A stretch of DNA of 64,000 nucleotides. Origin: Microbacterium paraoxydans. GTDB lineage: Bacteria > Actinomycetota > Actinomycetes > Actinomycetales > Microbacteriaceae. The translations under genes were made by a program, and so were the position numbers. Of this stretch, positions 36,834 through 64,000 are shown one piece after another; position 1 is the first letter of the stretch; each line of letters begins with the position of its first letter. Location: assembly GCF_019056515.1 (NCBI RefSeq), contig NZ_CP064873.1:2108001-2172000 (forward strand). The letters run 5' to 3'. The notes beneath the pieces were generated by a model. It did no database searches and had not been told where the DNA came from. It saw nothing but the letters and a program-made list of their open reading frames with translations.

Positions 36834-36936
36834 GATCTCTCTCGGGTCCGACCTTCGGCTCTGATCCCCCTCCGCTTCTCGACCCGGCACCGGGGAAGTG
36901 TGTCGGGGCGGGAGCGGCGGGGCATCACAGCCGTGG

Positions 36937-37368
36937 TCAGAACAGTCCGGGAATCACCTCCTGCTCCAGCTCGGCGTAGGACTCCTCGCCGGCGGCGAGG
37001 TAGGCGTTCCAGCTCTCCGCATCCCAGATCTCGGCGTGGGCGCCGACTCCGGTCACGATGAGCTCCTTCTGAAGACCCGCGTACTGACGCAGGTGGGCGG
37101 GGATGGTGATGCGGTTCTGGCTGTCGGGCATCTCCGCACTGGCACCGGAGAGGAACATGCGCATGAAGTCACGCGCCTGCTTGTTGGCGAGCGGGGCCTG
37201 ACGGATCCGCTCGTGCATCGCCTCGAACTCGGCCGTGCTGAAGACGTAGAGGCACCGCTCCTGACCCCGGGTGACGACGATGCCGCCGCCCAGGTCCTCG
37301 CGGAACTTCGCGGGAAGGATGACCCGTCCCTTGTCGTCCAGCTTCGGTGAGTGCGTGCCCAGCAGCAT
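36937..37368 (-). CDS. mraZ: Transcriptional regulator MraZ
   Basis: First gene of the division and wall cluster. 143 residues with two SpoVT/AbrB-like halves: [21 protein letters not shown] at the N-terminus and [20 protein letters not shown] about 75 residues later. In E. coli and Mycoplasma MraZ binds short repeats in front of its own operon; matching repeats lie 40-65 bases upstream of this start. Start site preceded by GGAGAGGGGG. About 100 bases separate it from rsmH. Confidence 0.97.
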
Positions 37369-60572: not shown

Positions 60573-61184
60573 CTAGAAGCCGAGAGCCCGGGCGAGCTTC
60601 GAATCGGAGCCCGCCTCACGGCCGCCGGCGGCGTGCACCGCACGCTCGATCGCCGCGAAGAACGCCGCACGACCGGCGTCGTCGGACGGGCCTGCGGGGC
60701 CGAGCTCGACCTCCCACTCCCGCCAGGCTCGGCGAGTCCCGCTGCGCAGGTCGGTCGCGCGCACGTGGTCGTCCACGAACTCCGCCACGACGCCGTCCGG
60801 TCCGGTGAGGAGGTAGGCCGTTCGGTCGTTCTCGATGCGTGCGAGAGGCTCCAGCGGCGCAGTGGTCCAGGCGGCGATCGCTGCGCGCACCGCCGTCGGG
60901 ACCTCCTCGCCGCCGAGGGGCCAGCCCTGCTCGACCCGGCCGTCGCCCTGCCGCGGGCCCTTGATGTGCCAGCCCTCGTCCGGTCCCCCGGAACGACGGC
61001 GCACCGCGACGCCGGCGCGGGCCAGCGTTCCGTCCGCGGTGTCCAGGTAGCGGGCGTCGAGAGCGCGATGCTCACCGGGCGAGACCGCATCGACGCCGGG
61101 GATCGCCGTCCAGTCGGGCAGGGGCGTCCCGTCGTCGACGTCGTACTTGCGCTCGACCTCGACGGTGCGAGAGGGCTCAGTCAT
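60573..61184 (-). CDS. CYTH-domain protein
   Basis: 203 residues. Opens with the triphosphate-tunnel signature EVERKYDV (ExExK), followed by the paired charged strands RYLDTADGTL, AVRRRSGG and WHIKGP, and EWEVELG near the C-terminus. The family includes thiamine triphosphatases, polyphosphatases and class IV adenylate cyclases; which applies is unknown. No CHAD domain. Its start overlaps the preceding small gene by eight bases. Confidence 0.85.
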   Translation of the reverse strand: MTEPSRTVEVERKYDVDDGTPLPDWTAIPGVDAVSPGEHRALDARYLDTADGTLARAGVAVRRRSGGPDEGWHIKGPRQGDGRVEQGWPLGGEEVPTAVRAAIAAWTTAPLEPLARIENDRTAYLLTGPDGVVAEFVDDHVRATDLRSGTRRAWREWEVELGPAGPSDDAGRAAFFAAIERAVHAAGGREAGSDSKLARALGF

Positions 61185-61392
61185 CCTCGAGCGTGAGGTC
61201 TTCGAGGGCTTCCTCGAACCAGTAGTCGATCTCTGTGGGGCCGTCGCCCTCGCCCGTGTTCTGCGGCTCGCCGCGGCGGTTGTAGACCACCTGCGTCTCG
61301 CTGTAGGGGACGATCAGCTTGTCGTCCGCATCGTCGTCGAGGGGGATGATCTGCCCGTCCAGCGGGCCGCCGTGAAGTCGTGCGAGTGCCAT
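61177..61392 (-). CDS. Small acidic protein, unknown
   Basis: 71 residues, not recognised. A short strand-rich start (MALARLHGGPLDGQIIPLDDD) leads to an acidic C-terminus ending LTLEDD. Overlaps the CYTH gene by eight bases, so the two are co-translated. ATG lies six bases after TACCCT. Confidence 0.7.
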   Translation of the reverse strand: MALARLHGGPLDGQIIPLDDDADDKLIVPYSETQVVYNRRGEPQNTGEGDGPTEIDYWFEEALEDLTLEDD

Positions 61393-61398
61393 GTGCCC

Positions 61399-61404
61399 AG
61401 GGTA
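61399..61404 (-). promoter_or_regulatory. Candidate -10 (TACCCT) for leaderless small gene/CYTH operon
   Basis: Ends six bases before the ATG at 61392 on the minus strand. Confidence 0.45.
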
Positions 61405-61439
61405 GCGCCGCCCTCCCCCATTCGGGGCGACCTGCGCGG

Positions 61440-61910
61440 TCAGCCGCCGAGGACGCCGAGGACGGCCCCCGCGATCATCCACGGCCCGAAGGCGATGCGG
61501 GTCCTCCGATCGGCCCGGCCCGCGGCGAGGAGCACGAGCGCGTAGACCGCTCCGAGCACGAAGGCGGACACCGCGCCGAGGAGGAAGGCCCCCCAGCCGT
61601 GCCAGGCGAGGACGAGCCCGATCACCAGGGCGAGCTTCACATCGCCTCCGCCCATGCCCGCCCGGCTGAGCAGCCGCAGGGCCGCATAGAAGCCGCCGAG
61701 CACGAGGGCTCCGAGCAGGCCCCGCCCCAGAGCGGCGGCGTCGGTGGTGACGACGGCGTCGGCGACCGCCGCCAGGAGCAGCAGGAACAGGGTCGGCAGC
61801 ACGATGCGGTTCGGGAGCCGATGCGTGCGCGCATCGATCACGGTCAGCAGGATGCCGATCGCGAGGAGGCCGCCGTGCACGAGGCCGAGGAGGGCGAGAC
61901 GGATGTCCAT
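61440..61910 (-). CDS. Prepilin peptidase (A24, CpaA/TadV type)
   Basis: 156 residues, about five membrane helices, single peptidase domain without an N-terminal methylase domain. The two catalytic Asp are in TVIDARTHRLPN and GMGGGDVKLA (GxGD). Processes type IV or Flp prepilins, but no pilus gene is in this window. ATG six bases after TACCCT. Confidence 0.87.
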   Translation of the reverse strand: MDIRLALLGLVHGGLLAIGILLTVIDARTHRLPNRIVLPTLFLLLLAAVADAVVTTDAAALGRGLLGALVLGGFYAALRLLSRAGMGGGDVKLALVIGLVLAWHGWGAFLLGAVSAFVLGAVYALVLLAAGRADRRTRIAFGPWMIAGAVLGVLGG

Positions 61911-61916
61911 CCCGGC

Positions 61917-61922
61917 AGGGTA
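61917..61922 (-). promoter_or_regulatory. Candidate -10 (TACCCT) for leaderless prepilin peptidase gene
   Basis: Ends six bases before the ATG at 61910 on the minus strand. Confidence 0.45.
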
Positions 61923-62014
61923 GGGGGATCCGGGACGGCGCGGAGCGCCCTGTGGACAACCCGGAGGGCGATGTCGGATGTACGAACTAGCGTCAGTCGC
62001 GTCACTTGCTTTAT

Positions 62015-62030
62015 TCGTACATATCTTCGA
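62015..62030 (+). promoter_or_regulatory. LexA (SOS) box upstream of imuA'-imuB
   Basis: TCGTACATATCTTCGA fits the actinobacterial SOS consensus TCGAAC-N4-GTTCGA at 10 of 12 fixed positions, and ends 10 bases before the ATG at 62041. Repression by LexA is expected for this cassette in relatives. A poorer match (8 of 12) is at 61982-61997. Confidence 0.7.
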
Positions 62031-62040
62031 GGATGGACAC

Positions 62041-62843
62041 ATGGGGATCGGGCTCGATGCGATGACCGCGCTCTCTCCGACCAGCGATACCCGCGCCGGA
62101 GAGGTCCTGCGACTGCGCCGCGAGATCAGCCGGATGCAGCGGCGGCGCAGCGAGCACACCCTCCTCCCCCTCGATCCCGCCTTCGCCGCGCTGCTGCCGG
62201 ACGAGGGACTGCAGACGGGCACCTCGTACACCGTCTCCCCCTCGCCCGCCCTCGTGCTCGCCCTGCTCAGCGCCTCCTCCGGCCGCGGGCACTGGTGCGC
62301 GGTGATCGGCATGCCCACCCTGGGGGTCGAGGCCGCCGCCGCCTACGGCATCGATCTGAGCCGCCTGATCCTCGTCCCCGACCCGGGGACCGCTGGCTCG
62401 CCGTCGCATCCGCGCTGGCCGAGGTGGTGCCCCTGATCGCCGTGCAGCCCACGACCAGGGCACGCGACGCCGATGTGTCCCGACTCAGCGCCCGTCTGCG
62501 CGACCGCGGGTCCACGCTGCTCGTGGCGGAGGAACCGGGTGCGGGGCGCTGGGCGCAGAGCGAGGGGACCATCCGGCTCCACGACCCGGACTGGCATGGG
62601 CTCGGCGAGGGGTGGGGGCTGCTCTCGGACTGCACGGTGACGGTAACGGCGCGGACCAGGCACAGCCCTCGCGCCTCGAGCGTGCGCGTCCGACTGCCCG
62701 GCGGACACGGAGCCGTGGAGACCGCGGCCGCGGAGCTGACTGCTCTGCCACCGCTCGTTCCCTCTGCGACGGGCAGCGCCGTGGCGACAGACGATGCTGT
62801 GGCCGGGTCGTCCGACCTCCTCTTCTGGGCGGAGGCAGGATGA
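62041..62843 (+). pseudogene. imuA'-like gene, frameshifted
   Basis: The first part (62041 to about 62388, 116 codons) reads in one frame, with a coiled-coil-like start (VLRLRREISRMQRRRSEHT), GTSYTVSPSPALVLALL and GRGHWCAVIGMPTL; the frame then runs to a stop at 62436. The same protein clearly resumes in the next frame (GDRWLAVASALAEVVPLI and on) to a stop at 62843. Adding one G to the GGGG run at 62385-62388 would restore a single protein of about 267 residues. The layout and place match the ImuA' (RecA/SulA-like) member of the actinobacterial mutasome. Either a real inactivation or a sequencing error in a G run. Confidence 0.8.
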
Positions 62844-64000
62844 ACGCCCCGCTCCGCGTCCTCGTGCTCTGGTTCCCCGATTGGCCGCTGCGAGCGGTGC
62901 TGGGCGGAGGCCCGCACCCGCCGACGGCCCTGGTGCAGGCGAACACGGTCGTCGCCTGCACCGCATCGGCCCGCGCACACGGCGTCCGCATCGGCCAGCG
63001 CCGCCGCGTCGCCCAGGGCCTCCTCTCCTCCTTGCAGGTCCTCCCCCACGACGCCGAGAAGGACGAACGCGCCTTCGTCCCCGTGCTGCAGCTCATCGAG
63101 AAGCACGCCCCGGGCGTGACGCTGCTGCGCCCCGGCCTCGCGATCCTGCGCGCCCGCGGCATCGCCCGCTATCACGGCGGGGAGACCGAGGCGGCGACAG
63201 CCCTGTCCGCGGTCCTCGCCGCTGCCGGCTTCCCCGAAGTGCGTGTCGGCGTCGCCGACGGACCCTTCACCGCCGAGATCGCGGCCCGAGGAACGGCGTC
63301 CTGCACGGTCGTGCCCCCGGGCGGCTCCCGGGAGTTCCTGGCCCCCTACCCCGTGCAGGTGCTCCGCGACGAGCAGATCAGCGATCTCCTCCTCCGCCTC
63401 GGCGTGCGCACTCTCGGCGAGTTCACCGCGCTCGCCCCTCTCGACGTCCGCGACCGCTTCGGCGAGCACGGTGCCCGCCTGCAGGCCCTCGCCGCCGGCG
63501 CCGACTCCCGACCTCTGGCTCCCCGGCCGCCCGACCCCGAACTGGCCAGGACCATCGAGTTCGAGTCCCCTCTCGGGGGCACCGACCAGGTGGCCTTCGC
63601 CGTGCGGCAGACCGCCGATGCCGTGATGCTCGCCCTGGCGGACGCGTCGCTCGTGTGCACCGAGGTGCGGATCGACCTGACCGACGACGACGGCGCCGTC
63701 CACTCCCGCACCTGGCTGCACCCGACGAGCTTCGACGCCGCCGACCTCGTGGACCGCGTGCGCTGGCAGCTGGAGGCGCTGGCCGCCCTGACCGCGAGCG
63801 CGCCCGTCGACGAGGCCAGGGCATTCGGGGGCATCGTGGCCGCCCGCCTCCTCCCCGTCGCGGTGGATGATGCGGCCCACCACCAACCGGGGCTCTTCGG
63901 CTCGGGTACCGATGAGCGATTGCATCACGCGGTCTCCCGGGTGCAGACCATGCTGGGGCATCAGGGCGTGGTCACCGCCGCCCTCTCCGGAGGGCGCTGG
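62840..64000 (+). CDS. imuB: ImuB, catalytically inactive Y-family polymerase, runs off the window
   Basis: Adapter of the ImuA'-ImuB-DnaE2 SOS mutagenesis complex. 387 codons are in the window and the frame is still open at 64000. The start MNAPLRVLVLWFPDWPLRA is typical of ImuB. At the positions where active DinB has Asp-Glu, it reads GLAILRARGIARYHGG, so the catalytic acids are missing, as in all ImuB. Helix-hairpin-helix-like RLGVRTLGEFTAL is visible. The ATG overlaps the imuA' stop (ATGA). dnaE2 is expected to the right. Confidence 0.9.
   Translation, partial: MNAPLRVLVLWFPDWPLRAVLGGGPHPPTALVQANTVVACTASARAHGVRIGQRRRVAQGLLSSLQVLPHDAEKDERAFVPVLQLIEKHAPGVTLLRPGLAILRARGIARYHGGETEAATALSAVLAAAGFPEVRVGVADGPFTAEIAARGTASCTVVPPGGSREFLAPYPVQVLRDEQISDLLLRLGVRTLGEFTALAPLDVRDRFGEHGARLQALAAGADSRPLAPRPPDPELARTIEFESPLGGTDQVAFAVRQTADAVMLALADASLVCTEVRIDLTDDDGAVHSRTWLHPTSFDAADLVDRVRWQLEALAALTASAPVDEARAFGGIVAARLLPVAVDDAAHHQPGLFGSGTDERLHHAVSRVQTMLGHQGVVTAALSGGRW

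Follow-up and report, generated by a model that had tools for sequence, protein, structure and literature searches.

The imuA' gene of a Microbacterium mutagenesis cassette appears in a deposited genome as two overlapping reading frames, raising the question of whether the organism has lost the gene, reads through the break, or carries an intact copy that was misread. The sequence analysed here (the window, 64,000 nucleotides) lies in a 3.59 Mb Microbacterium genome of two contigs. A first-pass annotation had called imuA' broken by a one-base frameshift, arising either through recent loss or through sequencing, and had offered slippage at a run of G as a further option. We examined the structure of the split, its occurrence among relatives and the occurrence of similar breaks elsewhere in the same assembly.

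Results

In the deposited sequence, the N-terminal half of imuA' (residues 1 to ~116, plus a tail read out of frame up to a stop) occupies 62041..62436 on the plus strand, running from an ATG at 62041 to a stop codon at 62434-62436. The C-terminal half lies in another frame of the same strand (62388..62843), which stays open until a TGA at 62841-62843 that overlaps the imuB ATG at 62840. An alternative in-frame start is present further upstream at 61978; the alignment of relatives begins at 62041. The break falls in a CCCGGGG stretch (62382..62388, plus strand) that is one base short compared with relatives, and the frame switch was located at its G run (62385-62388). Both halves separately exceed the curated cut-off (65 bits) of the ImuA' model NF058630, the N-terminal half scoring 77.0 bits over model positions 1-65 and the C-terminal half 65.7 bits over positions 68-153, while the intact copy of a relative, L005, scores 163.4 bits. 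The two halves are 97% (N) and 91% (C) identical to the L005 protein, with mismatches at codon positions 1, 2 and 3 numbering 0, 2 and 11 in the N-terminal half and 1, 7 and 19 in the C-terminal half; this high identity, and the predominance of third-position mismatches, indicate that the pairing of the halves is not due to chance. Profile matches and the alignment to relatives thus bear out what had been proposed for this locus, namely that two overlapping frames encode consecutive halves of ImuA', broken at this point and coupled at the 3' end to imuB. A genome search found no second imuA' copy besides the two halves. One candidate, a weak match (E 4e-4) containing three stops, was rejected as probably recA-like.

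A structure prediction for intact L005 ImuA' (pLDDT 76, pTM 0.70) was used to place the break in the fold. All 50 of the PDB matches listed by a fold search with this model were RecA structures, with moderate TM-scores of ~0.5 to 0.6, so that ImuA', judged from the modelled relative, looks RecA-like; the SulA-like family mentioned in the first-pass annotation should be corrected to this extent. In an alignment of 32 intact relatives, the break maps between residues 116 and 118, where the surrounding sequence is conserved and P113, P115 and W119 are invariant. In the predicted model, this position corresponds to the start of a helix (116-127) in the middle of the RecA-like core, with five strands (132-135, 159-163, 176-181, 198-206 and 213-219) following it. 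A true truncation should therefore be inactive, since modelling of the M. smegmatis proteins places the ImuB contact of ImuA' at G97-M144, in M. smegmatis residue numbering (PMC11791113). That paper also cites an earlier yeast two-hybrid study in which deletion of 40 C-terminal residues from mycobacterial ImuA' seemingly abolished ImuB binding, an effect that, its authors caution, could also reflect a loss of structure.

Downstream, imuB (62840..64000, plus strand; 511 aa) is a single open frame with an IMS domain (PF00817) that extends beyond the window end, and its product is 98% identical to its nearest named record, from Microbacterium sp. LCT-H2. The dnaE2 gene lies beyond the window and encodes a DNA polymerase III alpha domain (genome positions 2173425-2174162), and its homologue in the relative G126 matches the error-prone polymerase model NF004225. 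With ImuB and DnaE2 encoded beside imuA', this is an ordinary actinobacterial imuA'-imuB-dnaE2 mutagenesis cassette, present nearly genus-wide. A block upstream of imuA' that is conserved in the genus (61972..61993, plus strand) is a possible damage-response promoter element; a loose pattern derived from it occurs in the upstream regions of 45 of 66 relatives, a count made without a shuffle control. We take this block to resemble the PafBC (RecA-NDp) promoter motif. A search of PLSDB with window positions 61000-64000, in near mode only, gave no near match that would indicate plasmid origin, and our literature search found no paper on imuA and dnaE2 in Microbacterium. Elsewhere in the window, the minus strand carries a match to the mraW RNA family (Rfam RF01746) at 36842-36943.

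Relatives were examined at two levels. Among 68 loci fetched by means of ImuB, 66 cover imuA', and a single open imuA' frame was found in 65 of these. The exception is L070 (Microbacterium sp. Se63.02b), a complete-genome record in which imuA' occupies three frames, probably through indel errors in that record. More broadly, a search of 366 genomes of the genus, among them that of the window, found imuA' matches in 358. Among the match rows listed, nine other genomes had more than one match and were searched again. Four of these contain a split imuA', so that the genus has at least four others, a lower bound because the rows were not a full list and because a shift close to either end of the gene that leaves one match would escape the count. 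Their breaks map to approximately residue 70 (G070), residues 187-195 (G112), 166-173 together with 221 (G225) and 172-191 (G338), none at the position seen in the window, and in the remaining five the second match is weak or the copy is divided across two contigs. All four other split genomes are single-contig assemblies, as are ~106 of the 366 by an eye count, and three of the four have reduced completeness (68, 92 and 96). G225 and L070 are probably one genome, as they share the same break pattern. Because 65 of 66 loci are in one frame and the other splits in the genus lie elsewhere, there is no conserved two-frame arrangement of imuA', and a break shared across the genus was rejected as far as tested (66 loci; 366 genomes). 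Alignment to related strains was a check proposed in the first-pass annotation, and the observation that it named as refuting, homologues with the two-frame arrangement, was not made.

We then asked how the assembly itself compares with that of G126, by aligning 800 kb of the window genome to this relative (identity ~94% across the initial 400 kb; 689,500 bases aligned). A strict test, in which indels that break a coding frame are judged by the codon phase of mismatches, identified six broken genes in the window genome across the aligned bases, each with a one-base deletion. From the relative's copies, these were assigned to imuA', trpD, a Peripla_BP_4 sugar-binding protein, a second sugar-binding protein (SBP_bac_1), a CAAX-protease-like (Rce1-like) protein and a weak CU044_5270-like protein; in all six, the relative's frame around the site is coding-like, with a third-position G+C of 0.91 to 0.96. 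The trpD break is at ~2105019 of genome contig C1, 3 kb before the window. Two further broken genes, menC-like and dnaE2, were found by eye and had been missed by the strict test, such that a count of eight includes genes selected by hand and the strict figure is six. Three separate one-base deletions fall within ~260 bases of one sugar-binding protein gene (C1 ~2447588-2447849), whose alignment shows 5 substitutions over 523 columns. The consensus seems to be poor at this place, as the first deletion would already have inactivated the gene and evolution under selection would hardly produce three.

In the opposite direction, the strict test called four breaks in G126, where the net shift is 20, 1, 2 or 46 bases and the one-base case comprises a cluster of three gaps. 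On inspection, our reading of the frames places three of these calls close to or at the start or end of a gene, and the 46-base call could not be clearly assigned; none of the four is an isolated one-base break or a clear break within a gene. Counting isolated one-base breaks only, the comparison is 6 versus 0 (0.03 by a two-sided sign test calculated by hand), whereas counting all strict calls as breaks gives 6 versus 4, which proves nothing. Private indels numbered 30 in a third genome, G104, 15 in the window genome and 10 in G126. G104 was left out of the break count owing to its larger number of private indels, some of them in what we presume to be rRNA. Eight of the 10 private indels of G126 were checked, and two sites are probably not gene breaks: at index 371714 the frame open across the site has a third-position G+C of 0.72, which is not coding-like, and at index 334325 the value is 0.82, which is weakly so. 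In an unpolarised comparison of the 712 five-base G/C runs of G126, the window genome has one base fewer at 6 and a longer run at 1. A gene-caller comparison of the three genomes was dropped as too noisy, with wrong-frame open reading frames being called. The completeness (100) and contamination (0.03) of the window genome imply that its error load is modest, and an unsystematic look at the part compared noticed no strictly essential gene with a broken frame.

In dnaE2, the frame reaches residue 1142 of 1151 before a one-base shift nine codons from the end (C1 ~2175797, ~3.8 kb past the window end). This shift is private among the loci examined; the frame reaches the end in 64 of 70, and the other six comprise two window-genome copies, L006 (cut by a contig end) and three loci that gave no usable match. 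By a hand calculation, the probability of one among seven other random errors landing in the ~5.8 kb cassette is ~0.06. Two breaks in one cassette among approximately eight in 690 kb are thus slightly above chance, a mild hint of real decay.

Discussion

The presence of similar one-base deletions in unrelated genes of the same assembly, together with an undisrupted imuA' in almost every relative examined, suggests that the split imuA' is probably a sequencing or assembly error, and that the organism itself most likely has an intact gene. On this explanation, a single base would have been deleted from the short G run during sequencing or consensus calling, and we infer that the one-base deletions of this assembly, imuA' included, are errors. 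Against this, true slippage mutations also favour G runs. The five changes private to the window in the C-terminal half, 4 synonymous and 1 non-synonymous, are too few to gauge selection. The earlier claim that imuA' is broken therefore holds for the deposited sequence and probably fails for the organism, given the other one-base deletions in the assembly, while the timing that accompanied it (recent loss or sequencing) still stands. If the split is indeed an error, claims of gene loss from this assembly need read support.

A genuine and very recent loss of one base, cutting ImuA' to its first ~116 residues, is an unlikely alternative, though one with several points in its favour. The deposited sequence itself has the broken frame, the modelled break precedes five strands of the L005 fold, the reported 40-residue deletion seemed to abolish ImuB binding in the mycobacterial protein, and the privately shifted end of dnaE2 could mean that the whole cassette is decaying. 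Under such a loss, the last five strands of the RecA-like fold would be missing, imuB and dnaE2 would remain, and induced mutagenesis should drop. Against it, trpD and transport genes of the same assembly carry similar one-base deletions, three of them crowded into one short segment, and non-synonymous changes are not over-represented among those private to the C-terminal half, although a very recent loss would give no such excess either. The broader proposal, that the strain has recently begun dismantling its damage-induced mutagenesis cassette through private one-base changes in imuA' and the dnaE2 end while imuB stays whole, seems to us quite improbable. If true, it would be a rare natural loss of a cassette gene kept by nearly all members of the genus, and a strain with a real break would be a natural imuA' mutant in which to study ImuB and DnaE2 without ImuA'.

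It is very improbable that a real break is read through by ribosomes shifting -1 at C CCG GGG (62382-62388), which would yield full-length ImuA', possibly in smaller amounts. In favour, these seven bases, read in the N-terminal frame, formally match the X XXY YYZ pattern of -1 slippery sites, a -1 shift there enters the C-terminal half directly, and 4 of the 5 private changes in that half are synonymous. Against it, all-G/C slippery sites are poor ones, no shift is needed in the 65 related loci with a single frame, and the RNA at 62392-62480 folds less stably than its shuffled versions (z +1.53), with no stimulatory structure found by pseudoknot-free folding. The continuous frames of relatives and the unremarkable folding likewise speak against slippage at the G run as the working mechanism. 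Compared with programmed -1 frameshifts, then, the locus shows neither a conserved two-frame arrangement nor, by this folding, a downstream stimulatory structure.

Returning to the favoured explanation, an error in an otherwise ordinary cassette, the locus resembles the mycobacterial ImuA'-ImuB-DnaE2 mutasome (NF058630, repair_Rv3395c) in its gene order, its match to the ImuA' model, the RecA-like fold predicted for the intact relative and the catalogue names of its neighbours. It differs in that imuA' of this assembly is in two frames and the last nine codons of dnaE2 are shifted. A second useful comparison is with a long-read assembly described in PMC12007338, in which deletion errors were concentrated in homopolymers of two to eight bases, most commonly four to five, and affected A/T runs more than G/C runs. 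The window genome has fewer such deletions than that draft, in which A/T runs dominated; like it, this assembly exhibits one-base deletions, here mostly in short G/C runs, scattered over unrelated genes.
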